In this document: positions 1-19,620 of the stretch, piece by piece
Numbering within the stretch: position 1 is the stretch's first letter
Layout of the letters: every line of letters begins with the position of its first letter
NCBI GenBank assembly: GCA_002841335.1
Contig: PHEY01000007.1
Span: 1 to 64,000 of the forward strand
Direction: 5' to 3'
DNA length: 64,000 bases
Source: Actinobacteria bacterium HGW-Actinobacteria-2
GTDB lineage: Bacteria > Actinomycetota > Actinomycetes > Propionibacteriales > Propionibacteriaceae
The notes under the pieces: model-generated
Databases searched by the model: none
What the model saw: only the letters and a program-made list of their open reading frames with translations
What the model was told of the DNA's origin: nothing
Made by a program: the position numbers and the translations under genes

Positions 1-108
1 CGGAGACCCAAGCGTCGCCGGAGACCCGAGCGTCGCCGGAGACCCGAGCGGCGCCGGAGACCCGAGCGGCGCCGTAGACCCGAGCGTCGCCGGAGACCCA
101 AGCGTCGC
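1..108. repeat. 18-bp tandem repeat, six units
   Basis: Six contiguous 18-bp units (consensus CGGAGACCCGAGCGTCGC) begin at 1, 19, 37, 55, 73 and 91 and may continue left of the window. Read on the minus strand in the frame of the gene at 1-265, each unit encodes the hexapeptide G-D/A-A-R/W-V-S/Y. The array is therefore a coding repeat, not a satellite or CRISPR array. Confidence 0.9.
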
Positions 109-265
109 CGGAGTGCGCCAAGCACGCCTCCGACTCAACCCACCCACCCAGATCACCCGCACGAACGCCAGCAGCCGGAATGTCGACCAGCGCCCGGATA
201 CGGCGCAGCCACGGCGCGGACGGGTGAGTCTCCTCGGTCAGCTCGAACTTCTGAACCTCACTCAT
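1..265 (-). CDS. Phage-type hexapeptide-repeat protein, 3'-truncated by the window edge
   Basis: An open frame starts at ATG 265 and is still open at base 1 (88 codons seen). The N-terminal part (residues 1-50) resembles a small domain of many phage and prophage proteins, including the segment RAGDLGGWVESEACL. It runs into the repeat GDAWVS-GDARVY-GAARVS, a pattern expected to fold as a left-handed beta-helix. The start overlaps the stop of the upstream gene by 8 nt, so it is the ninth gene of the leftward phage operon. Function is unknown; such proteins lie in early or accessory phage regions. The family call rests on recalled pattern similarity. Confidence 0.72.
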   Translation of the reverse strand, partial: MSEVQKFELTEETHPSAPWLRRIRALVDIPAAGVRAGDLGGWVESEACLAHSGDAWVSGDARVYGAARVSGAARVSGDARVSGDAWVS

Positions 266-578
266 CGAGGCCACCACCCTCGACCTGCCCGAACGGCAAC
301 GGCGCCCGATTCAACCGCTCCTCACCCCGAGCCACCATCGCGTCCCGCACCGCCTGAGGCGTCTTCTCCGTCAACCACGCCTCAGCCCGACGCACCTGCA
401 CAGTCGGCACCTCAGTGCCCTTCGCCACCGAGTACCGCACCTCCCGCACATCGAAGGTGACGATCGCGGTGATCGTCGTCCCGTCCGGGTTCTTCGCCAA
501 CTCCGCGGCGAACACATCGAGACCATTCACGGTGTCATCGCCCGGGAGAGCGGAGGCCAACTTCAACGATTCGGACAT
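258..578 (-). CDS. Conserved phage protein of unknown function
   Basis: This is a 106-residue soluble protein. I chose ATG 578 because it is preceded by an AAGGAC-like element, while the in-frame ATG six codons upstream has no better site. A central beta-rich segment (around TAIVTFDVREVRYSV) is followed by a helical, charged C-terminus. I see no catalytic motif. It sits in the leftward early operon with the RecT and exonuclease genes and overlaps the next gene by 8 nt (ATGAGTGA). A role in phage replication or recombination is inferred from position only. Confidence 0.65.
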   Translation of the reverse strand: MSESLKLASALPGDDTVNGLDVFAAELAKNPDGTTITAIVTFDVREVRYSVAKGTEVPTVQVRRAEAWLTEKTPQAVRDAMVARGEERLNRAPLPFGQVEGGGLDE

Positions 579-617
579 AGGAGTCCGTCCTTTCACTAGT
601 GGGAGTACTTGCGTTGT

Positions 618-908
618 TCAGAACAGAGCGGCCGCGGCCGACTCCGAACGGGTCTTCTTGGGGGCCTCCGGCTTGCAGTCGGCGGCGTGGGGCCGGAACA
701 CCTTGAACCCCGGCTTGGGCAGTTCGCCGCGCCGCAGCACGTAGCCGGCGGCCCAGCGTTCGCCGGTCCATCGGGCCGCGACGTTGCCGTGCTCGGGGTC
801 GGGGATCGGGTTGACCGGGAGCGACTTCCCGCTCTCGACCATGCGGACCCATTTGAGGGTGGCGCCGCAGGTGCGGCAGCTGCCGGGGGCGGGCTGGTGG
901 TTAGCCAT
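618..908 (-). CDS. Small phage protein with zinc-ribbon-like cysteines
   Basis: A 96-residue protein starting at ATG 908, which overlaps the upstream stop by 8 nt (ATGGCTAA). Near the N-terminus it has a CRTC pair followed by a Gly-Lys-x-Leu-Pro-Val-Asn-Pro stretch; near the C-terminus it has a His-Ala-Ala-Asp-Cys element. Together these could form a C2HC zinc site. Proteins with this layout (CxxC, then K-x-x-P-x-x-P, then HxxxC) are common in actinophage early regions, where they are annotated as hypothetical. No enzymatic role can be assigned. Confidence 0.65.
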   Translation of the reverse strand: MANHQPAPGSCRTCGATLKWVRMVESGKSLPVNPIPDPEHGNVAARWTGERWAAGYVLRRGELPKPGFKVFRPHAADCKPEAPKKTRSESAAAALF

Positions 909-1200
909 GTCCGCCTCCGAGCACCTCCAGCACATCGCCGAGCGAAGTCACACAGCAGCCGCTCCGGCCAGCAATGGCCCAGTGCAAGGCGGTGTGGCAC
1001 GCCTCGGCGTAGTCAGCTACCGGGCAACCCTCGGTGCTGATCGCGGCGATCGCCTGAACGTAGTGCTCACGCGCACACACCAACGCCTCATGCATCGGCC
1101 CCTCCGGCAGCTGCTCAACCGCACCAGCAACCACCACCAACCGATCCCGCAACACCCGCACAGCAACATCCGACGACGGACGCGTAACAACCTCAGCCAC
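901..1200 (-). CDS. Hypothetical phage protein
   Basis: A 99-residue helical protein. I chose GTG 1200 because it forms an 8-nt overlap (GTGGCTGA) with the preceding stop, the same junction seen elsewhere in this operon. A longer in-frame extension to 1305 would be Arg-rich and overlap the upstream gene by more than 100 nt, so it was rejected. The C-terminal half has three cysteines spread over 30 residues. No family recognised; gene status rests on operon continuity. Confidence 0.5.
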   Translation of the reverse strand: MAEVVTRPSSDVAVRVLRDRLVVVAGAVEQLPEGPMHEALVCAREHYVQAIAAISTEGCPVADYAEACHTALHWAIAGRSGCCVTSLGDVLEVLGGGHG

Positions 1201-1432
1201 GAGACTCACCACCCGCCGGAACCGAAGCCATCTGAGCCGCCTCCAACGCGATCCAGCAGCACTCCGTGCACCGCTCAACCGCCGGATCCGGAGACTGCGA
1301 CGCATTCGCCACCGAGTACTCCAACGACATCACCCCGCACAGGGCGAGGAGATCGCCACCGACGACCAGGTGCTGAACCACCGCACCACCCCGGCTCACC
1401 TTGGCCTTCTGCCACGCCACCGAGTTAGGCAT
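1193..1432 (-). CDS. Small hypothetical phage protein
   Basis: A 79-residue protein whose ATG at 1432 overlaps the stop of the RecT-like gene by 8 nt. It contains a short Cys-rich segment (CTECCWIALEAA), possibly a metal or structural site. It lies within a tightly coupled operon, which supports it being translated. I do not recognise a family, and the small size leaves some doubt. Confidence 0.5.
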   Translation of the reverse strand: MPNSVAWQKAKVSRGGAVVQHLVVGGDLLALCGVMSLEYSVANASQSPDPAVERCTECCWIALEAAQMASVPAGGESRG

Positions 1433-2585
1433 CCTGATCGGCCCCCTTGTTGAGCGCCTCCAGCGCGGCGAGGTTCCGCAGCGCGCCGAGCCGGTTCAGC
1501 AGGTTCGCCAGCTCCTCGTCGGTCAGCTCGTTGGTCGACTCGACCGGACGGCCAACCAGCACCCCGGTCCAGAACAGGCGTTCGTCACGCTGTACCGGCT
1601 TGCCCAGCAGGCGTTCCCACTGCATCTGCACCTGGGTCGTGGTGCGCCGGCGCCAGTCGTCAGCGGGCAGGGTCGGTTCGGTGGTCTCGGTGGCCAGCTC
1701 GGCGCCGACCGCTTCCACGACCTCGGCGACGACAACCTCAGCTGCGACGGTCTCGGGCTCCTCCTCGGCCGCGGCCGGGGGAGCAGCCTTCGCGCCACGC
1801 GGAGTCAACCCAGCCCGCCGCCGTCCCCTCGCAGGGGCGGGCACGACCGGCTGTTGCTCCGACGTTGCCGCGCCCACCCCCTCCGAGGCAGCCGCGCCCC
1901 CCTGTTGCGGGGCCTCGGCCTCGACCGCCGGCGAGCTACCCAAACTCGACTGGCGGGAGACTGTGGTGGTGTTCGGCTGGTCCGGCACGTAGCCGGCGGC
2001 ATCGGCGCCGTCCATGTCCTGGAGCTCCTCGACCGATCGCATGCCGTGGATCACGTCCGCGAAGATCATCCGGGCGAGAATCGTGCTCGCGCGGGCCAGG
2101 AGGAGCGCCTGTGGCCATTTCTTGTACATCGACGGAGTGACTCGACCGTCTTTGGACCGCTTGTCCTCTAGGAGTCCGGCGCGGGCCGCGTCCTGCATCG
2201 TGAAGGTGACCGTGGTCCAGCGGTCCTCGGCCCACCCGGAGCGACGGCCCTTGATCGTGCAGCGCTCAGCGGTGGACACCTCAATATGCAGGTCGTGGCC
2301 AGCCTGCAGGATCAGCGCCCGCATCACCTCGGCAGAGGTACCGGGGCGCCCATTGATGACCTGGGTGTGTGCGAGTGATGTCATGGGCGGTAGACCGAGC
2401 TCTCGTCCGTGGAGGATCGCGGCGACGGTCTTCGGGACGCTGCCACGAAGACCACCGGGGACGAACTCGGTGTTTGCGATGTTCTCCGCCAGCGTCACGA
2501 CGTCGAGGAGCACAGCTGTCCAGCTGTCGGTGGTGCGGTCGAGGAGAGCCGGATTTGTCGGCGGGTCGTAAGGCTGCAAAGTCAT
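1425..2585 (-). CDS. RecT-like phage single-strand annealing protein
   Basis: This is a 386-residue protein. Residues about 25-215 match the actinophage RecT-type recombinase pattern: helical N-terminus, the block LHGRELGLPPMTSL, the motif INGRPGTSAEVMRALI, and the Trp/Arg-rich element before DVIHGM. The C-terminal third is a Pro/Ala/Glu-rich low-complexity linker, then a short conserved tail (from about residue 330) that may contact a partner. RecT-family proteins anneal complementary single strands after an exonuclease resects double-stranded DNA. The gene directly upstream encodes such an exonuclease, 29 bp away, so a two-component recombination system is likely. Confidence 0.8.
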   Translation of the reverse strand: MTLQPYDPPTNPALLDRTTDSWTAVLLDVVTLAENIANTEFVPGGLRGSVPKTVAAILHGRELGLPPMTSLAHTQVINGRPGTSAEVMRALILQAGHDLHIEVSTAERCTIKGRRSGWAEDRWTTVTFTMQDAARAGLLEDKRSKDGRVTPSMYKKWPQALLLARASTILARMIFADVIHGMRSVEELQDMDGADAAGYVPDQPNTTTVSRQSSLGSSPAVEAEAPQQGGAAASEGVGAATSEQQPVVPAPARGRRRAGLTPRGAKAAPPAAAEEEPETVAAEVVVAEVVEAVGAELATETTEPTLPADDWRRRTTTQVQMQWERLLGKPVQRDERLFWTGVLVGRPVESTNELTDEELANLLNRLGALRNLAALEALNKGADQDA

Positions 2586-2614
2586 GGGAGTGCCTCTCGT
2601 TCAGGGGTGATAGT

Positions 2615-3442
2615 TCAGGGACGCGCCGCGGGCACGTCTTCGGGATAGACCGGCTTACCCACGGGCGGGTCGAAAGACTCCTCATCACGGAAGTCCCACC
2701 CGGTCCGCTTCACCCAGGTCTCGTAGATCTCCAACATGTGCAGGAAGCTCTCGAAGATCGCCGGATCCAGCTTCACCGGCACCATTTCCACGGTGTCATC
2801 GAGGACGTGCGCGACCAGCAGCGAGTCGATCGCCGGCATCGGCGCCTCATGCCAAACCGTCTTCCGGCCACCGCGCGGCCCGATCTCCTCCGACGACACC
2901 AACCGCAGATCGCAGCCGGCGTACGCGTTCAACTGCAGCGCCACCTCGGAATAGACACCCTTGCCGGTCTTGATATCCATCAACGCCCGACCGAACCGGG
3001 GAGTCTCGGCGATCAGGTCGAAGGTGCCTCCGAAGCACCATTCGGTGTGAGCGACCGGCGTCTCCGTGGCGAACACCTCCAGCCCCCAGGTGTCGAGGAA
3101 ACGGGCGTAGGCGCTGACCTGGCTCTGAATCTCCAGCGGCACCTCGACGGTCTCGCCGTGGGCGAGCTTCTCGCCGAGCGCGTGGATTCGGTTGCCCTTG
3201 ACGACGGCTTTGCGGTTGGTGTTGTACCGGGCCTTCTCGATCTGCGCGGCGCGCTCCAGGAGCGGCAGGGCGGTGAGTCGTTCCCAGTTCTCGATCGCGA
3301 AGGATGCGGACTCTTTGGCGGCCCAGTTGACCAGGGCGGGTTTGTCGAGGATGCCGATCACGGTGGTGACGCCGGGGATGCGGTTGCCGTCGAGGAGGTA
3401 GCTGTGGCTGGTGCCGACGTTCTTGCGTACGAAGCGGGCCAT
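2615..3442 (-). CDS. PD-(D/E)XK phage exonuclease (RecB/Cas4-like fold)
   Basis: A 275-residue protein starting at ATG 3442, sharing one base with the preceding stop. The C-terminal half has the nuclease signature: HTEW, then FGGTFDLIAE, then LMDIKTGKGVY, then LQLNAY, supplying the acidic residues, the D-x-K lysine and the motif-IV glutamine. The N-terminal part (ILDKPALVNWAAKES) resembles the substrate-binding cap of phage RecB-like exonucleases. It is paired with the RecT-like gene immediately downstream, which points to double-strand end resection for phage recombination. Longer upstream extensions lack a ribosome site. Confidence 0.8.
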   Translation of the reverse strand: MARFVRKNVGTSHSYLLDGNRIPGVTTVIGILDKPALVNWAAKESASFAIENWERLTALPLLERAAQIEKARYNTNRKAVVKGNRIHALGEKLAHGETVEVPLEIQSQVSAYARFLDTWGLEVFATETPVAHTEWCFGGTFDLIAETPRFGRALMDIKTGKGVYSEVALQLNAYAGCDLRLVSSEEIGPRGGRKTVWHEAPMPAIDSLLVAHVLDDTVEMVPVKLDPAIFESFLHMLEIYETWVKRTGWDFRDEESFDPPVGKPVYPEDVPAARP

Positions 3443-3858
3443 CAGAACGCCACCGCCTTCGCGCACGGCATCATCCGGCCGACGATCTCCCTCAGCCGGG
3501 GATCGGGAAGAGTGAGGTCCGGATCGAGTTCCTCCGGCCAAGGCCAGCACGCGTAAAGCCCATCGAGCGTGCGGCCCAACAGGAAGGGATCGCGGCAATC
3601 GGAGCACCCCTCCGCGTGGATCTTCCCGTAGTTCTGGGAATCGCCGTCCATCTCAACCACCAGGGCCTGGCTCCACACCCACTTGACCACCGGTACGGCG
3701 GTGTCGTGCTCCTGCGCCTTCTGCACCACGGCGACGGCGGCCGCGTTCCTGATCTCCACCGCCAACAACGCCGCATCAGCCCGACCCAACCCGTCGAGCC
3801 CGGCCGCCACCAGGGACAGCTCCTCAGTCGTCAACCCGCGAGTAACCGGCTCAGCCAT
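3442..3858 (-). CDS. Hypothetical phage protein
   Basis: A 138-residue protein. ATG 3858 was chosen because it overlaps the upstream stop by 8 nt (ATGGCTGA). The first 55 residues are helical with no clear motif. A central GCSDC pair and the segment DPFLLGRTLDGLYACWPWP suggest a small metal-binding or structural region. It lies between a DNA-binding protein and the exonuclease. No family recognised. Confidence 0.6.
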   Translation of the reverse strand: MAEPVTRGLTTEELSLVAAGLDGLGRADAALLAVEIRNAAAVAVVQKAQEHDTAVPVVKWVWSQALVVEMDGDSQNYGKIHAEGCSDCRDPFLLGRTLDGLYACWPWPEELDPDLTLPDPRLREIVGRMMPCAKAVAF

Positions 3859-4051
3859 CGACCTCGACCCCCAAGAGTCGATCGATCTCCGACTGAGGGA
3901 ATCGACGCTGGCCTCCAGCCGTCCGCCGACCCGTGATCTTGCCTTCGCTCTCCCATCGCCGCAGCGTGTCAATCGAGACACCCAGCAACCGTGCCGCCGT
4001 CCCGATTGGGAGAGAATCCCCATCTACCGAGGTATACCTAGGTTCTGCCAT
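3851..4051 (-). CDS. MerR/excisionase-type DNA-binding protein (Cro or Xis candidate)
   Basis: A 66-residue protein that is almost entirely one winged-helix/HTH unit: IGTAARLLGVSIDTLRRWES, then GKITGRRTAGGQRRF, then a Glu-Ile-Asp-Arg-Leu-Leu tail. This is the MerR N-terminal pattern seen in phage excisionases and BldC-like proteins. It is the first gene of the leftward operon, divergent from the repressor, so a Cro-like or Xis role is plausible. ATG 4051 was preferred over 4069, which lies inside operator repeats. There is no effector domain. Confidence 0.75.
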   Translation of the reverse strand: MAEPRYTSVDGDSLPIGTAARLLGVSIDTLRRWESEGKITGRRTAGGQRRFPQSEIDRLLGVEVDG

Positions 4052-4117
4052 GCGGGTAAACCTAGGCATACCTCGGCACCTGGGGCAAGCAACACGCCGA
4101 AATGCCTAGGTTTACCC
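4029..4117. promoter_or_regulatory. Phage immunity-type operator array between divergent genes
   Basis: The divergent region contains a perfect 16-bp inverted repeat, GGGTAAACCTAGGCAT at 4054-4069 and its complement at 4102-4117. Related sites are AGGTATACCT at 4030-4039 (itself a palindrome) and AGGCATACCT at 4064-4073. The shared half-site is close to AGGTTTACC. The spacing and symmetry suit cooperative binding by a small XRE repressor that controls both the leftward operon and its own gene. Confidence 0.7.
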
Positions 4118-4138
4118 AGGTTTTGCTACCATTCGGGC

Positions 4139-4453
4139 ATGAGCACACAGCAGGCCCCAGGTTTCGGGGCATACACCTGGACTTTCGGAGACCGCCTCCG
4201 CAAGATCCGCAGAGTCAACGGGCTCAGTCAGAAGGAGTTCGCCGCCGAGATCGGCGCCGACCCGAAGTCGCTCAGTGCATGGGAGAGCGACGCATGGCTA
4301 CCCCGCGGGATCATGGCGATCGCGAGACGAATCGCAATCAGGTACAGAGTGCCGATCGCGTGGGTGCTCGGTGTTGACGATGGCGGCCCAACAGGCGGCC
4401 CCGGATATGAAGAGCTCCCCCACCTGGACTCGAACCAGGAACCTGCGGATTAA
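4139..4453 (+). CDS. XRE-family phage repressor running into tRNA-Asn
   Basis: A 104-residue protein from ATG 4139. Residues about 15-80 form an XRE HTH: FGDRLRKIRRVNGLSQKEF, AAEIGADPKSLSAWES, then a helical pack ending in VPIAWVLG. It diverges from the leftward early operon across an operator array. From residue 93 the coding sequence lies inside the 3' half of the opposite-strand tRNA-Asn gene (LPHLDSNQEPAD), and the TAA stop is in the anticodon-loop region. So the present C-terminus is encoded by the attachment site. In some mycobacteriophages (BPs type) integration truncates the repressor in the same way and produces the active form; that parallel is inference. Confidence 0.75.
   Translation: MSTQQAPGFGAYTWTFGDRLRKIRRVNGLSQKEFAAEIGADPKSLSAWESDAWLPRGIMAIARRIAIRYRVPIAWVLGVDDGGPTGGPGYEELPHLDSNQEPAD
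4415..4453. other. Probable attachment site (att) in the tRNA-Asn 3' half
   Basis: The tRNA-Asn 3' end abuts phage-type genes on its left and chromosomal genes lie on its right, the usual outcome of tyrosine-recombinase integration into a tRNA gene. Core boundaries cannot be set because the other junction and the integrase are outside the window. The interval given is where the repressor frame overlaps the tRNA. Confidence 0.55.
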
Positions 4454-4487
4454 CAGTCCGACGCTCTGCCAATTGAGCTATGGGGGA
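4415..4487 (-). tRNA. tRNA-Asn (GTT)
   Basis: On the minus strand the sequence folds as a full tRNA of 73 nt. The acceptor stem is TCCCCCA with TGGGGGA and a G discriminator, the D-arm is GCTCAATTGGCAGAGC, the anticodon loop reads CTGTTAA (anticodon GTT), and the T-loop is GTTCGAGTC. CCA is not encoded. It is the apparent integration target of the element to its left. Confidence 0.95.
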
Positions 4488-4554
4488 TCGCGCGGTGGCG
4501 CGGGGCGATACGTTACCAGAACTTGCGGGCAAGTTCGTACTTGGCGAGCAGGGC

Positions 4555-5049
4555 TCAGCCGAGGTCGAAATCGCGCCGCAGGCGGCGCAGTTCCAGTTCC
4601 ACTTCGGTGCTGGCTGCAGCCTGCTCGGCGGTGGTCCGCTTTCCCGGGGTGAGGTGCCAGATCAACGGTGCAGCGACGTCGACCAGCGATCGTCGGGCAC
4701 TGATCACGACACTGTGGTGGCCGTCGAACTCCAGATGCCGGGAGTAGGCCACCGTGGCGTTGACCCGCTCCTGGAAGAGCTGCGGGATTCGTCCGGGATC
4801 GTCCAACTCGACGGCGACCCAGGTGCCGTCCACAGTGCTCCAGTTGAGTTGCCGGGTGGCGTTGTCCCAGCCCCCGCGCTCGATCTCGTGCCAGGCAATC
4901 TCGCTCCAGCCGCCGTCGGTGGGATAGATCAGGCGATCGGTGAGGCCCAACACCGGACGGCCCGCGCTGGCCGAGCGCGCGAGCACCCGGGCCTTGCCCA
5001 CCAGTTCGGCGAGTTCCGGTGGGAGGGAACGACGAGAGAACAGCGACAT
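4555..5049 (-). CDS. Conserved actinobacterial hypothetical protein
   Basis: A 164-residue soluble protein from ATG 5049. It has a Trp-rich central region (GGWSEIAWHEIERGGWDN, then LNWSTVDGTWVAVEL) and ends in a charged helix (ELELRRLRRDFDLG). I recognise no catalytic motif or known family. It lies 68 bp from tRNA-Asn and 35 bp upstream of the end of the ligD frame, in its own orientation, and is the first chromosomal gene outside the integrated element. Base composition matches the chromosome. Confidence 0.7.
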   Translation of the reverse strand: MSLFSRRSLPPELAELVGKARVLARSASAGRPVLGLTDRLIYPTDGGWSEIAWHEIERGGWDNATRQLNWSTVDGTWVAVELDDPGRIPQLFQERVNATVAYSRHLEFDGHHSVVISARRSLVDVAAPLIWHLTPGKRTTAEQAAASTEVELELRRLRRDFDLG

Positions 5050-5083
5050 AGATCAATCATGCCCTGCCCGGCCACCAGCGGCT

Positions 5084-7441
5084 CTAGCGCTCGGCGTGGA
5101 CGTCAGCGGGGTTGAGATCCGGACGCCATCCCAGCCAGACCGGATGCCGCAGGCGTCCACTGGCGCTCAGCGCGCTGAAGGCCACCTCGGCAACCAGCTC
5201 CGGGCGCACCCACGTCGCTCCGCGGGCGTCCTCGGCCGGCACCTCGATGAACGGGGATGTGTCGGCCGTCAGCGGGTCCAGCAGTGCCGTGGCCCGGTCG
5301 AGTCCAGCGTCGTCGAAGCCTGACCCGACTCGTCCCAGGTAGCGCAGCCGGTCGCCGTCGGGGAGGCCCACCAGCACCGAGCCGATGCTGCCGCCGCGCC
5401 GGCCCAGGCCCGGACGCCAGCCACCCACGACCACTGACTGGGTACGGCGATGTTTGATCTTCAGCCAGGTATCGGACCGCCGTCCTGGCAGGTAGGTCGA
5501 GCCCAGCCGCTTGGCCACCACCCCCTCCAACCGGAAGGTCAGGCTGGCGTCCAGGGCAGCCTCCAAGTCGCCGGGGAACGCCGGCGGCACCTGGACGTGG
5601 CCGAGCCCGTCAGGCACCAGGTGCTCCAGCAGTTCGCGGCGCTGCTGGTAGGGAACGTCCAACACCGAGGTCGCGTCGAGTTCGAGCACGTCGAAGAGCA
5701 TCAGCTGCACCGGAGTCGCGGTCACCGCCGCGGCGATGTCGGCGGGCTTGGTGAGGTTGATCCGGGGCTGCAACCGACCGAAGTCAGGTGCGCCGCCGGC
5801 GTCCAGAGCCACGATCTCGCCGTCGAGGGTGGCGCTGCCGCAGCCGATGGCCCGCAGATCGTCGGTGAGCTCGGGGTAGCGGGCCGTCTCGTCGCGCCCG
5901 TTGCGACTGGTCAGGGACACCTGGTCGCCGACGATGGTGACCACCGCGCGCACGCCGTCCCACTTCATCTCGTAGGCCCAGTCCTCGCCGGTGCCCAGCG
6001 CGTCCGGCTCGGCGGGGGAGGCCAACATCGGTTCCAGGCGGCCCGGTGGCAGCCCCCGAACCCGACGGACGGGCACCGGTTCCTTCGCCGCGACCATCTT
6101 GTGCATCAGCCAGTTGTCGGCATCGGTGTGGATGAGTGCGAACGTGACCGGCTCGCCGCCCAGGCCGCCGTCGCGACGGCCGTGAAGGGTCACGATCACC
6201 TCCGCGCCCTCGCGCCACTTGGACAGTTCGTAGCTGCCGGCGTCCCAGATGCTCACCGTGCCGGCGCCGTACTGCCCGGCGGGGATCGTGCCCTCGAATC
6301 CGCCGTAGGCCAAGGGGTGATCCTCCACGTGCACCGCCAAGTGGTTGGTGCCCGGGTCGGTGGGTGGGCCCTTCGGCACCGCCCAGCTGACCAGGACGCC
6401 GTCGCGTTCGAGCCGGAAGTCGTAGTGCAACCGTCGGGCGTGATGCTCCTGGATCACGAAACTGGTGCCCGCACCCGCGGCGGGCGCTGTCGGCGGCACC
6501 GGCTCGGGGGTCTTGGTCGCGTCCCGCATGCTGCGGTAGGTCGACAGCTTGTCGGTGCCCGAGCCGGTGAGGCCGGCCAGCGGGTCGCCGTCGACGGCGA
6601 CCCGGGCCAGCACCTCAGCGAAGTCGAGGTGTCCCAGCTCGGGGTCGGTCAGCTCGTCCCAGGTGCGCGGCGCGGCCACCCACGGCTGCTGCCGTCCGCG
6701 CAACGAATAGGGCGACACCGTGGTCTTCGACCCGTTGTTCTGGCTCCAGTCCAGGAACACTCGTCCGGTCCGATCGGCTTTGCGCATCACCGCGGTGACC
6801 TGGTCGGGGTGATGGCGTTGCAGGGTCTGGGCCACCTGCTTGGCCACCTCGGAGGCGCCTTCGCTGTCGAGTTGGCCGTCGAGGGCGGCATAGAGGTGGA
6901 TGCCCTTGCTGCCACTGGTAACCGGGTAGGACGCCATCCCCAACTCGTCCAGCAGTTCGCGCACCCAGCCGGCCACCCGGGCACAGTCGGCCAGGCTGAC
7001 GCCCTCACCCGGGTCGAGGTCGAAGACCAGTCGGTCGGGTGGCAGCCGGTTCTGGTCGTCGTCGAACCGCCACTGTGGGACGTGCAGCTCGAGGGCGGCC
7101 AGTTGAGCCAGCCACACCACGGTGGCGGTGTCGTCGGCCAGTGGATAGTCGTTGGTACCGCTGGTGTGCGCGATGCGTGCCCGGCGCACCCAATCCGGGG
7201 TGCCGGCGGGCAGGTTCTTGGCGAAGAACACGTTCGGTGGCTCGGCACCGTCGCCCACCCCGTCAGGGAAACGCTTGCGAGTGATCGGACGCTGGCGCAG
7301 GTGCGGCAGCAGCACGGGGGCGATCTGGGTGTAGTAGTCGATCACCTCGCCCTTGGTGGTGCCGGTGGCGGGATAAAGCACCTTGTCGAGGTTGGTCAGG
7401 GCGAGCTGATGCCCGTCCACGGTGACCCTCTGGGTGCTCAT
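5084..7441 (-). CDS. ligD: Multidomain ATP-dependent DNA ligase LigD (polymerase-phosphoesterase-ligase)
   Basis: A 785-residue NHEJ ligase with the mycobacterial domain order. Residues 1-290 are the primase-polymerase domain (LTNLDKVLYPATGTTKGEV, then VFDLDPGEGV with the catalytic Asp pair). Residues about 325-450 are the 3'-phosphoesterase (FVIQEHHARRLHYDFRLERDG, HVEDHPLAYGGFEG). Residues about 470-785 are the ligase, with nucleotidyl-lysine motif EMKWDGVRAV and C-terminal OB-fold. LigD works with Ku to fill, trim and seal double-strand breaks. No Ku gene is in the window. The start ATG 7441 lies 42 bp from the sirtuin gene, so the two may be cotranscribed. Confidence 0.96.
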   Translation of the reverse strand: MSTQRVTVDGHQLALTNLDKVLYPATGTTKGEVIDYYTQIAPVLLPHLRQRPITRKRFPDGVGDGAEPPNVFFAKNLPAGTPDWVRRARIAHTSGTNDYPLADDTATVVWLAQLAALELHVPQWRFDDDQNRLPPDRLVFDLDPGEGVSLADCARVAGWVRELLDELGMASYPVTSGSKGIHLYAALDGQLDSEGASEVAKQVAQTLQRHHPDQVTAVMRKADRTGRVFLDWSQNNGSKTTVSPYSLRGRQQPWVAAPRTWDELTDPELGHLDFAEVLARVAVDGDPLAGLTGSGTDKLSTYRSMRDATKTPEPVPPTAPAAGAGTSFVIQEHHARRLHYDFRLERDGVLVSWAVPKGPPTDPGTNHLAVHVEDHPLAYGGFEGTIPAGQYGAGTVSIWDAGSYELSKWREGAEVIVTLHGRRDGGLGGEPVTFALIHTDADNWLMHKMVAAKEPVPVRRVRGLPPGRLEPMLASPAEPDALGTGEDWAYEMKWDGVRAVVTIVGDQVSLTSRNGRDETARYPELTDDLRAIGCGSATLDGEIVALDAGGAPDFGRLQPRINLTKPADIAAAVTATPVQLMLFDVLELDATSVLDVPYQQRRELLEHLVPDGLGHVQVPPAFPGDLEAALDASLTFRLEGVVAKRLGSTYLPGRRSDTWLKIKHRRTQSVVVGGWRPGLGRRGGSIGSVLVGLPDGDRLRYLGRVGSGFDDAGLDRATALLDPLTADTSPFIEVPAEDARGATWVRPELVAEVAFSALSASGRLRHPVWLGWRPDLNPADVHAER

Positions 7442-7482
7442 CGCACCATCCTGCCCCGAATCGACACCGGCAGGTAGGTGCC

Positions 7483-8199
7483 TCAGGGAACGGCAGCGCC
7501 GAGGGCTTGACCGATCGGTTCACGGACGACCAGGGTGGCCGCGGAGTCCATCGCGGTGGCCTGGGTGTTGATCAGGATCAACGTGTGCCCGCCGAAGGCC
7601 TGCACCAGCCCGGCCGCGGGGTACACCACCAAGGAGGTGCCGCCGACGATCAGGGTGTCGGCGGCCTCGAGCGCGGAGATCGAAGCCTCGATCACCGCCG
7701 AGTCCAGGGCCTCCTCGTACAGCACCACGTCGGGTTTGATCATCCCGCCGCAGTCGCAGCGGGGGATCCCGTCAGCGGTCAGCACCGTCTGCATCGGATA
7801 GGTGCGCCCACAGCTCAGGCAGGTGTTGCGATGGACGCTGCCGTGCAGTTCCCAGACGTTGGTCGAACCGGCGGCCTGATGCAGTCCGTCGATGTTCTGA
7901 GTGATCACCGCGGTCAGCTTTCCGGCCGCCTCCAGCCGGGCCAGCGCGGTATGGGCGGGGTTGGGCTGAGCGTCGGGGTGCAGCAGGTAGCGGCGGTAGA
8001 AATCGAAGAAGTCTGCCGGGTAGCGGTCGAAGAAGCTGCGACTCAGCACGGCTTCCGGCGGATAGGACGTCCCAGTCTGTTGGTGGTACAGCCCGCCGCT
8101 GGAGCGGAAGTCGGGAATGCCGCTTTCGGTGGAGACGCCGGCACCGCCGAAGAAGACGATGCGGTGGGCGTCCTGGATGGCTCGGGCAAGCTCGTTCAC
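7483..8199 (-). CDS. cobB: NAD-dependent protein deacylase, sirtuin (SIR2/CobB family)
   Basis: A sirtuin of about 238 residues. The NAD-binding Rossmann motif FFGGAGVSTESGIPDFRS lies near the N-terminus, followed by TQNIDGLHQAAGS and the catalytic HGSVHR. A zinc ribbon of CLSC and CDC contributes four cysteines, and VGGTSLVVYPAAG closes the fold. It removes acyl groups from lysines using NAD, commonly acting on acetyl-CoA synthetase in bacteria. GTG 8199 is preferred because it places the motif as in other sirtuins; GTG 8226 is the alternative. Its start faces the M20 peptidase gene across about 75 bp. Confidence 0.93.
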   Translation of the reverse strand: MNELARAIQDAHRIVFFGGAGVSTESGIPDFRSSGGLYHQQTGTSYPPEAVLSRSFFDRYPADFFDFYRRYLLHPDAQPNPAHTALARLEAAGKLTAVITQNIDGLHQAAGSTNVWELHGSVHRNTCLSCGRTYPMQTVLTADGIPRCDCGGMIKPDVVLYEEALDSAVIEASISALEAADTLIVGGTSLVVYPAAGLVQAFGGHTLILINTQATAMDSAATLVVREPIGQALGAAVP

Positions 8200-8275
8200 G
8201 ACTCGACCATAGCCCGCATAGCTCACGCGGTGATTGCTGATCCCGCCGGGGCGTCGGTGGCCCTAGGCTGCGCGC

Positions 8276-9640
8276 ATGCAGTCGCTTTGGTCGCCGTCGG
8301 CCGACATCACGCCCGCCCGCTCGGGTATCGAGGATCGGCTGGCGGAGATGATCACCATTCCGACCATCTCGGCCCACCGCGCCGAGCTGGGTGTGGGCCC
8401 CTTCGAGCAGTTCCTCGACCTACTCGCCCAGCAGTACCCATTGATCCACCAGCACCTCGAACGCGAGCGGATCGGCGAGCTGGGCATGGTGTTCACCTGG
8501 AGCCCGGCCGGGCCGAGCGCGGCCGCCCCGGTGGTGCTGATGGCGCACTTCGATGTGGTGCCGGTCGCCGGCCAGGAGGACGAATGGACGGTGCCGCCGT
8601 TCGAAGGGCGGATCGCCGACGGAGTGGTCTGGGGCCGTGGCGCGCTGGACGACAAGGGTTCGCTGGTGACGCTGCTGGACGCGGTGGAGAACCTGCTCAC
8701 TGACGGCTGGGCGCCGCCGCGGGAAGTGCTGTTGTGCTTGGGCGGCGACGAGGAGACCCACGGACGGGCGGCCCGGCTGATCGCCGACACCCTCAAGGAT
8801 CGCGGCGTGCGGCCCAGCTTCGTTTTGGATGAGGGTGGCGCGGTGACAACCTTGCCGTTCCCGGGGCTGTCGGGTTGGTTCGCCATGATCGGCCTGGCCG
8901 AGAAGGGCGTGATGGCGGTTCGGCTGTCGACCACCGGTGCCGGTGGGCACGCGTCCGCGCCGTCTGGGCTGACCGCGGTCGGACGGATCGCCCGCGCGGT
9001 CGCCCGACTGAACCACAATCCCTTCCGGCTGCGGATGCCGCGCACCGTGCGGCAGCTGTTCTCCCGGCTCGCTGACTACGCCGACCAGCCCTATGCGGGC
9101 ATCTACCGGGCTGCGGCGTCCGCGCCGGCGGTGACCTCTCGGTTGCTGCCGTTGCTGGGCGCCGAGGGCGAGGTCATGGTTCGCACCAGCCTGGCCGCCA
9201 CCATGATCTCGGGCGGCAGTGCTGCCAATGTGCTGCCTTCGGAGGCGTCGGCGGTGCTGAACCTGCGGGTGAACGTGGGGGAGTCCTGTGACCAGGTGAT
9301 CACCCGGCTGCGGACCGTGATCGATGACCCCGAAGTGACCATCGACATCATCGAGGCCGACGAACCCACCCCCGAATCCGCCGTCGACAACGCCGCCTGG
9401 CGCCAGCTCGCCGCTGCGGTCGCCGCCGCCTACCCTGGTGTGGAGGCCGTGCCCTACCTGACCACCGCTGCCACCGACGGGCGTCATTGGCATCGGTTCA
9501 CCCCCAACGTCTATCGCTTCAGCCCGCTGGCGATGGATGCCGAACAGCGGGCGTCGATTCACGCCGCCGACGAACGAGTCAGTGTTGACGCGCTCGTTCG
9601 CGGTGAACGGTTCTACCGGGCGCTTCTGCTCGGACTGTGA
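8276..9640 (+). CDS. M20 family metallopeptidase (ArgE/DapE/PM20D1-like)
   Basis: A 454-residue zinc hydrolase. Metal and catalytic elements appear in the expected order: LMAHFDVVPV, GRGALDDKGS, the catalytic CLGGDEETHG, FVLDEGGAV and a C-terminal GRHWHRF histidine. A dimerisation or lid domain is inserted between about residues 215 and 340 (GAGGHASAP onward). The length and the lid with LNHNPF resemble the PM20D1 and Gly-Xaa carboxypeptidase branch. The substrate is unknown; a dipeptide or N-acyl amino acid is likely. It diverges from cobB, and the next gene, an MFS transporter, follows 14 bp later, so they probably form an operon. Confidence 0.88.
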   Translation: MQSLWSPSADITPARSGIEDRLAEMITIPTISAHRAELGVGPFEQFLDLLAQQYPLIHQHLERERIGELGMVFTWSPAGPSAAAPVVLMAHFDVVPVAGQEDEWTVPPFEGRIADGVVWGRGALDDKGSLVTLLDAVENLLTDGWAPPREVLLCLGGDEETHGRAARLIADTLKDRGVRPSFVLDEGGAVTTLPFPGLSGWFAMIGLAEKGVMAVRLSTTGAGGHASAPSGLTAVGRIARAVARLNHNPFRLRMPRTVRQLFSRLADYADQPYAGIYRAAASAPAVTSRLLPLLGAEGEVMVRTSLAATMISGGSAANVLPSEASAVLNLRVNVGESCDQVITRLRTVIDDPEVTIDIIEADEPTPESAVDNAAWRQLAAAVAAAYPGVEAVPYLTTAATDGRHWHRFTPNVYRFSPLAMDAEQRASIHAADERVSVDALVRGERFYRALLLGL

Positions 9641-9654
9641 GGTGGGGGTTTCCA

Positions 9655-11103
9655 ATGGCTGAAGGTGTTACCGACGCGTCCAGGATCAAGTTCGGCAACC
9701 TGGGCATGGTGGTCGGCTTCCTGGTGTTCGTGGAGTTGACCAGCGGGGTCATCCAAGGCTTCTACGTCCCGCTGCTCACCGACATCGCGCGCTACTTCGG
9801 CGTGCCTGATGCGGACGTGAACTGGCTGGAGGGCGCCCAGGCGATGGTGGCCGCCATCGTCATTCCGGCGTTCGCCAAGCTCGGTGACATGATCGGGCAC
9901 CGCAAGATGCTGCTGATCACCACCGCGGTGACCGCGCTGGCCAGCGTGCTGATGCCACTGTCGGGCAACTTCTGGCTCTTCCTGGCCGCCTGGGCGCTGC
10001 AGGGCTTCTACGTCGTGTGGCTGCCGCTGGAGACCGCGCTGATCTACTCCCGCGCCCGGTCCACCGGACATCCGGCGGTGCTGACCCGCCGCGCTGCAGG
10101 CGCTCTGGTGGGCGCGCTGGAGATCGGGGTGATCGTGGCGGCGCTGTCGGCCGGTCAGTTGGTCGACGTGGTCGGCCTGCCGGGCCTGCTGTGGATTCCG
10201 GCGATCGCCGTGGTCGCCTGCTTCTTCGTGATCCTGTTCGGGGTGAAGGAGTCGCCCGAGCTGCACGGTGGACGTTTCGACACCATCGGTCTGGTGCTGG
10301 TGGCGATCGCCTTGCTGGGCCTGACCGGTGGGCTGTTCCTGCTTCGGGTGTACGGCCCGGCCTCGCCGGCCGCCTGGGCCGTGCTGGTGCTGGGGGTGGT
10401 GTTGTTCGTGCCGTTCGTGCTCTGGGAGCGCCGGACGGCCGATCCGGTGATCGAGGTGCGGATGTTCGCCGATCCCACGCTGTGGCCGGTGTTCCTCACC
10501 GCCGGCCTGTTCGGCGTGAGCGTGCTCGGCGCCCAGGCGCCGCTGTCGACCTTCGCCCGGACCGACCCGGCCGTCGGCTACGGACTGGGGGCGACCTCGG
10601 GCCAGACCTCGATCCTGATCGGCGCCTACGTGCTCACCTTGGCCATCGGGGCGCTGATGCTGCCGGTGGTGACCAAGTTCATCACCCCGCGGTGGGCGCT
10701 GGTCGGGGCCAGCGCGCTGGTCGGCGTCGGCTATCTGCTGTTCCTGCCGCTGCATGCCACCTACGTCCAGACCTTGACCAACATGATCATCGCCGGCCTG
10801 GGCTCGGGAGCTCTGGTCGCCGCCCTGCCGGCGGCTGCTGCCACTGCGGCACCGCATGGTCAGACCGGGGTGGCTACCGGACTGACCAACTCGGTCAAGA
10901 CTGTGGGCGGTGCGATCGCCTCAGCGGTGTTCGGGATCGCCCTGGCCACCCATGCCCCGGGCAGTGACGTGGGAACCGCCGGATCCTTCACCGGGTACCT
11001 CACGGTGTGGATCGTGTGTGGCACCACCGCGCTGGTGGCCGCGGTGGCCCTGTTGTTCGTGCCGAAGACGGCCTTCAGCGACGCAGCACCGTCAGCTGAG
11101 TAG
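9655..11103 (+). CDS. MFS transporter, 14-TM drug-exporter type
   Basis: A 482-residue membrane protein with about 13-14 hydrophobic segments across its length. Early features of the DHA2-like major facilitator group include the motif-A region FAKLGDMIGHRKMLLI after the second helix and a late ATGLTNSVKTVGGAIASAV helix. ATG 9655 was chosen because GAGGTGGGGG precedes it; GTG 9637 overlaps the peptidase stop and has no ribosome site. It likely exports a small amphiphile or drug by proton antiport. Its 3' end overlaps the convergent HAD gene by 12 bp. Confidence 0.85.
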   Translation: MAEGVTDASRIKFGNLGMVVGFLVFVELTSGVIQGFYVPLLTDIARYFGVPDADVNWLEGAQAMVAAIVIPAFAKLGDMIGHRKMLLITTAVTALASVLMPLSGNFWLFLAAWALQGFYVVWLPLETALIYSRARSTGHPAVLTRRAAGALVGALEIGVIVAALSAGQLVDVVGLPGLLWIPAIAVVACFFVILFGVKESPELHGGRFDTIGLVLVAIALLGLTGGLFLLRVYGPASPAAWAVLVLGVVLFVPFVLWERRTADPVIEVRMFADPTLWPVFLTAGLFGVSVLGAQAPLSTFARTDPAVGYGLGATSGQTSILIGAYVLTLAIGALMLPVVTKFITPRWALVGASALVGVGYLLFLPLHATYVQTLTNMIIAGLGSGALVAALPAAAATAAPHGQTGVATGLTNSVKTVGGAIASAVFGIALATHAPGSDVGTAGSFTGYLTVWIVCGTTALVAAVALLFVPKTAFSDAAPSAE

Positions 11104-11898
11104 GTCGAGGATCGTGCGACCCACGCCGTCCTCGGCGTTGCTGGCCACCTCGGTGTACCCGCGGGTCTTCATCGTGTGGTGGCCGTTGGCGACCACGAAT
11201 CCCTGTCCGACCCAGTCGAGCATGTCGGCATCGTTGGGCATGTCCCCGAAGGCGATCACGTCGGCGGCGTCGACGTGCAGGTCGGCGCACACCTTCGCCA
11301 AGGTGGACGCCTTCGAGATGCCCGGCGCGGTCAGCTCGATCATTCCGTAAGGCTGGCTGACCGAGGCGTGAGTGAGGGTGAGTCGCTCGCCGATGATCGG
11401 GGCGGCCTGCGCGGTGAGGTGTTCGGAATCGATGCCCGGGTGAAAGCCGAGCACCTTGATGATCGGGCCGAGTGCGGCGATCAACTCGTCGACCGAGCCG
11501 ACGAAGTGGCCGGGTTCCTGGCGCTGCCGCGACGGGGAATCGGGTTCGCAACCGAACCCGACACCGGTCTCGAAGCCATAAGTCATTCCCGGGATCTGTT
11601 GACGAAGTTCGTCCAGCACGCCGATGGTCAGCGCGGTCACCAGGGGGAACTCCAGAATCGGCGTCCGAGTGGCCAGGTCGACGACCGCGCCGCCGTTGCT
11701 GACGATCACTTGCGGATGAGCGCGGGCCACTGCGTCCAGCACGCCCAGCCAGCGACTCGGACGTCCGGTGGCCACCACGAACGGAATGCCGTACTCAGCT
11801 GCCTTCTCCACGGCGCGAGCGTTGAGCGCCGAGACGTTGCCGTCCGGACGCAAGAACGTGCCGTCCAGGTCGGTGGCGATCAGCCGGGGCCTGGTCAC
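11092..11898 (-). CDS. Cof-type HAD-superfamily sugar-phosphatase-like hydrolase
   Basis: A 268-residue HAD hydrolase. It has motif I IATDLDGTFLRPD (nucleophile and acid Asp), motif II VVATGRPS, a C2B-type cap between them and motif III/IV, and the C-terminal FGDMPNDADML that binds Mg2+. Cof-type members dephosphorylate sugar phosphates, FMN or pyridoxal phosphate; the substrate here is unknown. GTG 11898 overlaps the upstream membrane-protein stop by 4 nt (GTGA), so the two are translationally coupled. A longer upstream reading is the antisense of that neighbour's repeat tail and was not used. Confidence 0.9.
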   Translation of the reverse strand: MTRPRLIATDLDGTFLRPDGNVSALNARAVEKAAEYGIPFVVATGRPSRWLGVLDAVARAHPQVIVSNGGAVVDLATRTPILEFPLVTALTIGVLDELRQQIPGMTYGFETGVGFGCEPDSPSRQRQEPGHFVGSVDELIAALGPIIKVLGFHPGIDSEHLTAQAAPIIGERLTLTHASVSQPYGMIELTAPGISKASTLAKVCADLHVDAADVIAFGDMPNDADMLDWVGQGFVVANGHHTMKTRGYTEVASNAEDGVGRTILDLLS

Positions 11899-12776
11899 AG
11901 CTTCGAGTTCGGGGTGGGCGATCCGCGTCCGGACGGGGAGGCGGTCTGCGGCGAGGGGGTTACCGACTGGCGCGACGCCGACGGCGAGCCCGATCCAGAC
12001 GGTGATGGCGATCCCGATTGCGGCGAGGGCGATCCCGATTGCGGCGAGGGTGATCCCGATTGCGGCGACGGCGATCCCGACTGCGGTGGGGGAGAGCCGG
12101 TGGCGCTGGTCGGCACCGGAGGCGGGGGCTGCTGAGTCGAGGACTCGTGGAAGATCAAGATCGCGATCAGCACGGCCAACGCGCACAGCAGCAGCATCAG
12201 CAGCCACGAGGCCAGAATGCTCAGCCAGCCGGTGCGGTCGTGGCGCCCCGGCCACGGCAGCGGCCACACCTTGGCAATCCCTGGACGGCTCCAGTCGATC
12301 CAGTGCAAGCGGTAGTCCGGGCCGGCGACCTGGCCTTGAGATCCGAGCAGCGACATGTCGATCTCGGACAGAATCCGCTCAGCCTCGGCCACTGCGGCCC
12401 CGGAAGCGTCATAGGCCAGCGCCACCCACGGGGTCGCCGGCGTCTGGTCGCCGAGTTGGGGATCGTCCGGCTCGTCGCGGAAATGGTGTCCCAGGCGCCC
12501 CTCGTCCTGTCCGTGACCGCCGCGAGCCAGCACGGTGTCGATGTGCAGCTGGTTGACCGTTCCGGCCAACCGATCACGCGCACCGGCGTCACCGGCGGCG
12601 CCCTCGGACAACAGGATCACCATCGCGGAGGTGTTGGCCTCGTCATGGGCGATGTAGGCCACTCCCGACGGGGCCGCGCTCAACCGTGCGTCCAGCCAGA
12701 AGTCTCCGACCTTCGGCGGGTCGGACGGCAGCAGCGGCGACAGGCGCGGCGGCTGGCCGGGCGTCGGTTCGCTCAT
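11895..12776 (-). CDS. Hypothetical membrane protein with Pro/Ser repeat tail
   Basis: A 293-residue protein with a soluble N-terminal domain of about 185 residues (including SAMVILLSEGAAGDAGARD), one strong transmembrane helix (ASWLLMLLLCALAVLIAILI, around residues 190-210) and a C-terminal tail rich in Pro, Ser and Gly. The tail includes four PQSGSPS units encoded by a 21-bp tandem repeat. No signal peptide is evident, so the tail probably lies outside and the N-domain in the cytoplasm. It is coupled to the HAD gene and divergent from moxR. The function is unknown; a membrane-anchored sensor or scaffold is a guess. Confidence 0.72.
   Translation of the reverse strand: MSEPTPGQPPRLSPLLPSDPPKVGDFWLDARLSAAPSGVAYIAHDEANTSAMVILLSEGAAGDAGARDRLAGTVNQLHIDTVLARGGHGQDEGRLGHHFRDEPDDPQLGDQTPATPWVALAYDASGAAVAEAERILSEIDMSLLGSQGQVAGPDYRLHWIDWSRPGIAKVWPLPWPGRHDRTGWLSILASWLLMLLLCALAVLIAILIFHESSTQQPPPPVPTSATGSPPPQSGSPSPQSGSPSPQSGSPSPQSGSPSPSGSGSPSASRQSVTPSPQTASPSGRGSPTPNSKL
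12007..12090. repeat. 21-bp coding tandem repeat, four units
   Basis: Four 21-bp units begin at 12007, 12028, 12049 and 12070; the first two are identical and the later two diverge. On the minus strand each encodes PQSGSPS in the tail of the membrane protein. The unit length is a multiple of three, so copy-number change would keep the frame. Confidence 0.9.
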
Positions 12777-12949
12777 CTGGTCCCATCGTCAGTGCCGGAA
12801 GGCTGCGATGCCCCATTCTGCCGTACTGGCCAAGCTGTGGGGGTGGTGAAACATGCCCGGTGTCCAACCCGGACGAGGATTCGCCCCACCCGGTATCGTG
12901 GGCGGCGCCTGTCGATGTTGTTTTCGCCTGCTTACTACCGGGAGCCCAC

Positions 12950-14038
12950 GTGACTAATTCGAGCCATGAAGCCTCGACCCCGTCGTCGCATCACGCCAAG
13001 CCCGTCACTCAAGCCGACACCGCTGCGGCCGCGAAGCTGCTGGGTCAGGCCATCGAGCAGGTGCAGCGGGTCATCGTCGGCCAGGAGCACATGGTCGAGC
13101 AGCTGATGGTGTCGCTGCTGGCCAAGGGTCACTGTCTGCTCGAAGGCGTGCCCGGTGTGGCCAAGACGCTGGCCGTGCGCAGCTTCGCCACCGTGGTCGG
13201 CGGCAAGTTCGCCCGGATCCAGTTCACCCCCGACCTGGTGCCCTCCGACATCGTCGGTACCCGGATCTACTCGGCCCAGCAGGAGAAGTTCGACATCGCG
13301 CTCGGCCCGGTGTTCGTGAACTTCGTGCTGGCCGATGAGATCAACCGTGCGCCGGCCAAGGTGCAGTCGGCGATGCTGGAGTTGATGGCTGAGCAGCAGG
13401 TGTCCATCGGCGGTGAGACCTACCCGGTGCCGCAGCCGTTCATCGTGATCGCCACCCAGAACCCGATCGAGTCCGAGGGTGTCTACCCGCTGCCCGAGGC
13501 TCAGCGCGACCGCTTCCTGCTGAAGGTGGACGTCTCCTATCCCCGTGGCAACGAGGAGTTCGAGATCCTGCGCCGGATGAGTGTGAAGCCGCCGACGGCC
13601 GATCCGGTGCTGAACCCTGAGCTGGTCCGTGAGCTGCAGGACCTGGCCAGCAATGTGTTCGTGCACAACCTGGTGGCCGAGTACATCGTCCGGCTGGTGT
13701 TGGCGAGCCGTACCCCGGAGGAGTTCGGGATGCCCGATCTGACCTCGGTGATCCAGATCGGCTGCAGCCCGCGCGCCACGCTGGGCCTGGTGGCCGCCTC
13801 GCGCGCGCTGGCTCTGATCCACGGACGCGACTACGTGCTGCCGACCGACGTCCAGGCCGTCGCCAAGGACGTGATGGCCCACCGCATCGTGCTGGGCTTC
13901 GACGCGGTCGCCGACAACATCACTCCCGCCCAAGTCGTGGAGCGGATCGTCGCCATGGTCCCGCCGCCCACGCCGGTGTGGAACAACCAGCAACGCCAGG
14001 CAGCCCAGACCCAGCATCGCTACCAGCCGCAGGGCTGA
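12950..14038 (+). CDS. moxR: MoxR-family AAA+ ATPase
   Basis: A 362-residue AAA+ protein. Walker A is LEGVPGVAKTLAV, Walker B is VLADEINRAP, sensor 1 is IVIATQNPIESEG, and an arginine finger follows (LPEAQRDRFLLKV). GTG 12950 is preceded by GGGAG. MoxR ATPases act as chaperones that help metal insertion or assembly of VWA proteins. This one heads an operon with DUF58 and two VWA genes, the same architecture as mycobacterial moxR1-Rv1480-Rv1481. The residues upstream of GTG 12950 in the same frame are Arg-rich and overlap the divergent gene, so they were rejected. Confidence 0.92.
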   Translation: MTNSSHEASTPSSHHAKPVTQADTAAAAKLLGQAIEQVQRVIVGQEHMVEQLMVSLLAKGHCLLEGVPGVAKTLAVRSFATVVGGKFARIQFTPDLVPSDIVGTRIYSAQQEKFDIALGPVFVNFVLADEINRAPAKVQSAMLELMAEQQVSIGGETYPVPQPFIVIATQNPIESEGVYPLPEAQRDRFLLKVDVSYPRGNEEFEILRRMSVKPPTADPVLNPELVRELQDLASNVFVHNLVAEYIVRLVLASRTPEEFGMPDLTSVIQIGCSPRATLGLVAASRALALIHGRDYVLPTDVQAVAKDVMAHRIVLGFDAVADNITPAQVVERIVAMVPPPTPVWNNQQRQAAQTQHRYQPQG

Positions 14039-14043
14039 TCGGC

Positions 14044-17014: not shown

Positions 17015-17121
17015 CCGCGGGTCGTAGTAGCCGTTCGCGGCTCGCTGGGGCACAATGGCCACAGACCCTGATCGAACGAGGTTGCTGGGGAAGGCAAATC
17101 TCGACATAGATCGGGGGTCAC

Positions 17122-17616
17122 ATGACCAGTACGCGTGGGGTCGTTCAGATCCATTCCGCGAACGTTGCGCTGCGCCCACACCTCGAGTGGGCAGTCGGCG
17201 CCGTCTTGGGCTACCCGGTGGAGTTCGATTGGACCTGGCAGCCCGCCGAACATCGCACCATGCGCGCCGAGTTCTCCTGGCAGGCCCCGGTTGGTACCGG
17301 TGCGCAGTTGGCCAGCGCCCTGCGCGGGTGTGAGCGGGTCCGCTTCGAAGTCACCGAAGAAGCTGTCGGCGGTGGGGACGGTCTGCGATGGGCCTTCACG
17401 CCCCGGCTGGGCGTCTTCTCCGCCTCGGTGGGCGAACACGGCGACATCATGGTTCACGAGAATCGGCTGCGCGAAGCGGTGGTCGCCGACGCCCTGGGCC
17501 GCAAGCCTTTGGCCGATGCCATCTCCGACCTGCTGGGCACTGCCTGGGATCTGGAGCTGGAACCATTCCGCCTCGCCGCCGAAGGCGCGCCCGTCCGCTG
17601 GCTTCACGTCGGCTGA
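17122..17616 (+). CDS. DUF3145 family protein
   Basis: A 164-residue soluble protein matching the actinobacterial DUF3145 pattern, including GVVQIHSANVALRPHLEWAV near the N-terminus, VEFDWTWQPAEHR, and the C-terminal WDLELEPFRLAAEG. The function is unknown. It has its own leader of 107 bp after the VWA operon and converges on fabF across a strong hairpin. Start ATG 17122 follows a GGGGGTC stretch that is a weak ribosome site. Confidence 0.88.
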   Translation: MTSTRGVVQIHSANVALRPHLEWAVGAVLGYPVEFDWTWQPAEHRTMRAEFSWQAPVGTGAQLASALRGCERVRFEVTEEAVGGGDGLRWAFTPRLGVFSASVGEHGDIMVHENRLREAVVADALGRKPLADAISDLLGTAWDLELEPFRLAAEGAPVRWLHVG

Positions 17617-19197: not shown

Positions 19198-19325
19198 GGT
19201 TGCTTCCGTTGGTCGATCAAAGTGGTGAGGCTGGGATGGGCACACCGGGACCAGGTGTGGCGGTCCCGGCGCGCCCGATCAGGTGGTGCGAGAGCCGCGG
19301 GTGGCGGCACGTCTCACCGATCAGT

Positions 19326-19568: not shown

Positions 19569-19620
19569 CTGTTTCTCCATTCTTTGTTGGGTTGCTTTCG
19601 CTCCGGCCGTAGCCGGTGGT

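Follow-up and report, generated by a model that had tools for sequence, protein, structure and literature searches.

Integration-dependent immunity in actinobacteriophages and a probable case at tRNA-Asn

The repressor gp33 of mycobacteriophage BPs occurs in forms of 136 and 103 residues, the longer of which is inactive through degradation directed by an ssrA-like tag whereas the shorter one is stable and active (PMC4557955, partial text). Integration-dependent immunity is predicted at many tRNA genes for Gordonia phages (PMC5559632, partial text); the cluster CW phages GRU3 and McGonagall use tRNA-Lys (PMC5559632, partial text), and Obliviate, a Gordonia phage that uses tRNA-Thr, is predicted to have the system as well (PMC4929511). 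In the prophages MabC, MabK, MabN and MabO of M. abscessus, 20-35 residues of the repressor are removed (PMC8092301, partial text). The term 'Asn' is absent from the main texts of PMC8092301, PMC9934374 and PMC5559632, and a search of main texts found no paper combining integration-dependent immunity with tRNA-Asn (one tRNAAsn paper concerned Sinorhizobium). We judge that the mechanism itself is already well described and that a tRNA-Asn site and a Propionibacteriales host, neither of which was encountered in the literature passages covered, are the likely additions made by the case reported here. This case is very probably a prophage with integration-dependent immunity of the BPs type, seen from its attR end.

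A repressor gene that ends inside tRNA-Asn

The stretch of DNA analyzed here (hereinafter the window; 64,000 nucleotides) corresponds to C6, one of the 14 contigs of a 2.92-Mb assembly (G000), and its left start is already inside the prophage (Table 1). The host is assigned to Propionibacteriales through its relatives: G145, a genome of the same family, coincides with CP059261.1 of Micropruina sp., a genus that NCBI classes in Nocardioidaceae, and G165 shares its site with a 'Propionibacteriaceae bacterium' MAG (L075 and L127). The repressor adjoining the right boundary of the prophage scores 31.6 bits with Pfam HTH_19 (cut-off 30.2) and matches phrog_2328, 'transcriptional repressor', over residues 11-104, that is, most of the protein (E 1.7e-20). 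Upstream of the tRNA, GC at the three codon positions of the gene is 0.60, 0.56 and 0.74, the pattern that genuine genes are expected to show where DNA is GC-rich. The tRNA-Asn gene contains the stop TAA together with the 12 codons before it (LPHLDSNQEPAD), and the coordinates, overlap and stop reported in the first-pass annotation for a 104-residue XRE/HTH repressor are all correct. The tRNA is identical over its 74 nt to the tRNA-Asn of a congener (G021) and thus intact after integration. The integrase described as absent near this junction is indeed not there: both PF00589 matches of the whole assembly are on contig C2. Three GGTAWRCCTAGG/CCTAGGYWTACC-type sites, candidate operators judging by their pattern, are grouped about the MerR-type gene start (4031-4116), 5' of the repressor gene; no further sites of this type were detected elsewhere in the provirus pieces scanned.

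Table 1. Features at the prophage end of the window (feature; positions; strand; basis or remark)
End of 18-bp tandem repeat array	1-113		contig breaks here, position 1 inside repeat
RecT-like annealing protein (phrog_4171)	1425-2585	-	PHROG match
Phage exonuclease (phrog_298)	2615-3451	-	PHROG match
MerR-type HTH protein, probable excisionase/regulator	3851-4069	-	profile matches; divergent from repressor
Operator-like site GGTATACCTAGG	4031-4042		pattern only
Operator-like near-palindrome GGTAAACCTAGGCATACC	4055-4072		pattern only
Operator-like site CCTAGGTTTACC	4105-4116		pattern only
HTH repressor, prophage form, 104 aa	4139-4453	+	ORF, Pfam and PHROG; attP form predicted to have 112 aa
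attR common core, 39 bp	4413-4451		no mismatch against attL in L126
tRNA-Asn(gtt)	4414-4487	-	tRNA call; right boundary of prophage
Host-supplied stop TAA	4451-4453	+	base 4452 is A in host, C in phage attL (TCA)

The repressor had been described as reading from phage DNA into the tRNA gene. The overlap stands, but the assignment of the last codons to the tRNA side does not: positions 4413-4451 are a common core that is equally phage DNA, and the DNA is demonstrably of host origin only from 4452 onward. Moreover, at the apparently empty tRNA-Asn gene of G021 a 148-aa open frame enters the tRNA in the same phase, and the overlap on its own is therefore weak evidence. The case is carried by the HTH match, the recurrence of the layout in relatives and the recovery of the second junction. 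A chance overlap as the whole story is rejected.

Recovery of the second junction

The break of the contig in the 18-bp repeat is probably the reason why the integrase end is missing from the window contig. In the source assembly (G000), searches for a second junction, the prophage integrase, the left flank and the flank gene found none of these. A tRNA-like piece at G000:C2:673877 (L002), where no tRNA is called, was considered as the second att site and ruled out, as it is only 88% identical; this tRNA-Asn-like segment (L002 1500-1560, G000:C2:673877-673936; 88% over 60 bp) may have been left behind by an earlier integration.

The IMG/VR provirus IMGVR_UViG_3300029821_000146 (G001; 27,434 bp) is 100% identical to positions 1-4453 of the window. 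It opens with a 273-aa tyrosine integrase, at its ATG, and hence lacks attL; as it closes at the repressor stop, it has probably been trimmed to gene ends. The tandem repeat comprises about 23 copies in this provirus (L009 556-975) and lies in an open frame. A scan of public genomes with an integrase alignment yielded 52 loci, among them L126, on contig PHEU01000015.1 of the MAG HGW-Actinobacteria-6 (G202), which encodes an integrase identical to that of G001. This integrase, which matches phrog_1, has its ATG 115 bp past the core start, and the tRNA-Asn 3' end recurs upstream of it. The other tRNA-like junction, which the first-pass annotation proposed to seek by extending the assembly to the left, has thus been recovered outside the source assembly, and the integrase is located, as anticipated, at the opposite prophage end, in G001 and, beside this second copy of the tRNA end, in L126.

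Compared piecewise with G001, the phage part of PHEU01000015.1 is 100% identical throughout (G202:C53:686-19100 corresponds to G001 3786-22200, and L126 to G001 1-3819), and G001 is covered at 100% by the window or the PHEU contig apart from about 96 bp within the repeat. Given that PHEU01000015.1 and C6 each break off in this tandem repeat, separated by about 96 bp of provirus, they look like the two halves of one insertion that were placed in different bins. Both public half-prophages break at the 18-bp repeat. In the host flank of attL, a gene about 3.2 kb off is 81% identical over 400 residues to a G021 gene, and this counterpart directly adjoins the G021 tRNA-Asn, where no prophage is seen. 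The source bin of attL is HGW-Actinobacteria-6, not G000, and the connection is made via G001 and synteny, not by one read. If the L126 attL came from another prophage copy or another host, the rebuilt attP would not be that of the window prophage, and the status of G202 as a separate bin and the lack of the left flank in G000 would fit such an origin; nevertheless, all the compared phage sequence is 100% identical and bridged by G001, and the 39-bp core is free of mismatches, so that we give a separate copy hardly any weight.

The attP core and the switch of the stop codon

When attP is joined in silico, the core lies within the repressor frame and the reading runs GAT TCA CTG TTA CGC CTA GTC GCG GCC TAA, giving a repressor of 112 aa that ends EPADSLLRLVAA (ELPHLDSNQEPADSLLRLVAA), i.e., ...SLLRLVAA. 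The prophage form ends ELPHLDSNQEPAD (...EPAD), and in silico integration thus takes the repressor from 112 to 104 aa, with the loss of the 8-residue tail SLLRLVAA. Both junctions, the core, the two reading frames and the gene order can be read directly from the DNA. Reconstruction of attP and comparison of the C-terminus before and after integration had been suggested at the outset, with the caveat that a core covering all of 4415-4453 would leave the protein unaltered; the core stops at 4451, one base before the difference, and an unchanged C-terminus is ruled out, as the stop differs at 4452, outside the core. An unintegrated relative with the same 104-residue protein, the other observation that was to count against the idea, was not encountered in what was searched. 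The C-terminus of the attP form (LVAA) resembles that of the host tmRNA tag (ALAA) and that of the integrase (VNAAA), and the tail is likely to be an ssrA-like degradation tag. An integrase C-terminus of the AA type, common in BPs-type systems, is accordingly present here.

These findings support the BPs-type geometry proposed in the first-pass annotation, with attP in the repressor gene and truncation upon integration: the core is in frame, the stop is supplied by the host and the integrase is distal. The free phage would have its 39-bp attP core within the repressor gene, immediately ahead of the tyrosine integrase, and the repressor would be translated through the core into the tail SLLRLVAA that resembles the ssrA tag; this long form would be degraded and inactive. 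Upon integration at tRNA-Asn, the DNA past the core would be replaced by host DNA, the next base of which makes TAA, so that the prophage repressor would end at residue 104 without the tail and hence would be stable and able to repress, while the tRNA-Asn 3' end would be rebuilt from the phage copy. By analogy with BPs, the predicted degradation of the long form and the stability and activity of the short form would confer immunity.

As in BPs, attP lies in the repressor gene and integration leaves a shorter repressor without the ssrA-like C-terminus; the size of this shorter form is, as had been noted, close to that of the BPs prophage form (104 versus 103 residues). Unlike in BPs, the site is tRNA-Asn and the tail comprises 8 rather than 33 residues; the two systems are likened here by published description, not by sequence. 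The M. abscessus prophages MabC, MabK, MabN and MabO share with this locus the completion of the stop codon by the first bacterial base past the core, but have other attB sites and lose 20-35 residues against 8 here (PMC8092301, partial text). The repressors of Obliviate, GRU3 and McGonagall also belong to phrog_2328, and in these phages too the repressor is upstream of the integrase on the same strand, has an AA tail and crosses the tRNA in the codon phase seen here. McGonagall's repressor, with the end ADRLLSLVAA, resembles the attP form of this prophage, and the tail of GRU3 is similarly short by sequence. These Gordonia phages differ from the present case in their tRNA genes and host, and Obliviate differs further in the repressor (47% over 90 positions), in the integrase (32% over 262 positions) and in the presence of a small ORF between the two. 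Given that Obliviate, with its related repressor, has already been predicted to have the system, the prophage described here appears to be a further member.

It is conceivable that the system once worked in this manner but that the prophage has since decayed or become unable to leave, the truncated repressor being a relic; this is compatible with the main reading. The division of the prophage between two assemblies would fit this, but each of the genes for the integrase, the repressor, the MerR-type protein and recombination is an open frame, and the 27,434-bp provirus is matched at 100% save for about 96 bp in the repeat, so that we regard decay as unlikely.

Relatives at tRNA-Asn genes

The closest full-length relative, in a genome of the same family (L100), encodes a repressor 53% identical over 94 residues that is uncut and ends PFGYRLRLLRAA (RLRLLRAA), with an integrase match about 360 bp downstream. 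Tails of the AA type, comparable to the ssrA-like ends that the first-pass annotation had proposed to look for, are found among relatives, namely LLRAA in L100 and ADRLLSLVAA in McGonagall. Other full-length relatives end GERVA (L106), AKAA (L108) and LSAA (L152); the L106 integrase was matched only over residues 83-273 and may be broken. In a single-contig genome (G005), both ends of a relative are found in the same tRNA, which is read in another frame; the long repressor form ends RRLHLVPPIGQTPAA (TPAA) and the integrated form RRSAN.

Among the 8 relatives scanned for domains, a Pfam HTH scored above the cut-off in L100, L106, L152, L111, L069 and L110, and below it in L108 (E 0.015) and G005 (E 0.019), although for L108 the repressor family phrog_4583 was matched with E 1.4e-11. 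The IMG/VR proviruses L069, L070, L110 and L120, of which the scan covered L069 and L110, end exactly at the stop of a frame with the last residues LPHLDSNQEPFD, and a metagenomic virus record (L111 8916-9206) encodes a different HTH repressor that enters a whole identical tRNA-Asn; these five look like integrated forms. Other elements in the genus (L058 6801, L059 5809, L060 6894, L061 73) have a 25-bp core at the same tRNA-Asn, and their tails show no AA or VA end in any of the three frames. The tRNA-Asn site of this genus looks like an integration hot spot.

For named phages, no tRNA-Asn attP was found among the matches listed, the best 40 of 535 records all being on tRNA-Asn genes. In a further search (15 records at E 10), three records lay under a repressor gene, two of them from McGonagall and one from Jeanie. 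No named phage with the L069 repressor was detected (3 records, covering 4-5% of the query).

Frequency of AA-ending frames

Among 84 integrase loci examined, some of which are duplicates, 8 rows, 7 of them distinct, have a core that resembles tRNA-Asn at an E of no more than 2e-4, although for three of these 7 the core is at 90% identity, so that the tRNA may be another one; two more rows, with 14-nt matches at E about 0.04, were left out of the count. At 6 of the 7 distinct loci, a frame that crosses the core ends AA, a fraction to be read with three frames tried per site, which raises the chance rate, and with the repressor not visible at attL-only sites; the exception is L103, with no AA or VA in any frame. 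In the control, AA ends were found in one of 51 window ORFs and in none of 42 ORFs of five other loci.

Of the 23 IMG/VR records, 11 continue from the core into a complete tRNA, 5 end at the stop of the repressor, and in the other 7 the tRNA is broken off by other DNA. From the last group L117 was dropped, as it represents the same site as L106; in the remaining six, the frame in the Ser-Asn (SN) phase ends AA or VA in L106, L108, L116 and L125, but not in L113 and L114. The position of the host stop is a sense codon in 11 of 13 attP or attL sites (L126, L103, L100, L152, L129, L127, L106, L108, L125, L116 and L114), and TAA is kept at the other two, L074 (in another frame) and L113. The SN-phase frame of L127 terminates before that position, and it is a different frame that has the AA end. 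On the minus strand of L113, with the core at 305 when the locus is reversed, a broken-off tRNA-Asn keeps TAA and frame 0 ends LAVA; no integrase match was found at this locus.

These counts bear on the view that the repressor frame reads into the tRNA by chance and that the tail has no role in degradation. GC-rich DNA easily yields open frames into a tRNA, as exemplified by the 148-aa frame of G021, the tail is short, and AA or VA ends are absent at some related sites (L103, L114). Yet the excess of AA ends at tRNA-Asn-core integrase loci over the control argues against chance, as do like tails in otherwise different phages, namely GERVA in L106 and L125 and ADxLLxLVAA in the attP form here and in McGonagall. 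A chance reading is, in our assessment, very unlikely.

The stop codon and the anticodon

Anticodon letters 2-3 and A37 give, in antisense, the TAA at 4451-4453; two tRNA-Lys genes of the same genome have TAA at the same T-loop offset. The motif TCGAAYC is read in the same phase by 13 of the 14 repressors compared, which are partly related and not a random sample; the exception is G005. It is possible, although we advance this only tentatively, that the immunity switch takes its stop from the host anticodon, read in antisense: tRNAs with NUU anticodons (Asn, Lys), A37 and the same variable-loop length would, in the Ser-Asn T-loop phase, put TAA 21 nt on, so that the host would either keep the stop or lose the tRNA, whereas the phages could swap tRNA targets and keep the repressor frame. 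With the stop drawn from the anticodon, the host could not drop it without dropping the tRNA; and the phase shared by 13 of the 14 repressors, which use several different tRNA genes, would point to tRNA targets being swapped with the frame kept. If true, this relationship would help to explain the choice of certain tRNA genes and predict which tRNAs are usable.

Implications

Integration-dependent immunity, on the reading preferred here, would be extended to a Propionibacteriales host and to a tRNA-Asn site, and the change involved would be very small, with the frame diverging at a single base beside the core and eight residues lost. The same layout recurs at several loci related to this one in other actinobacteria, the temperate phages of which may thus commonly use the switch.
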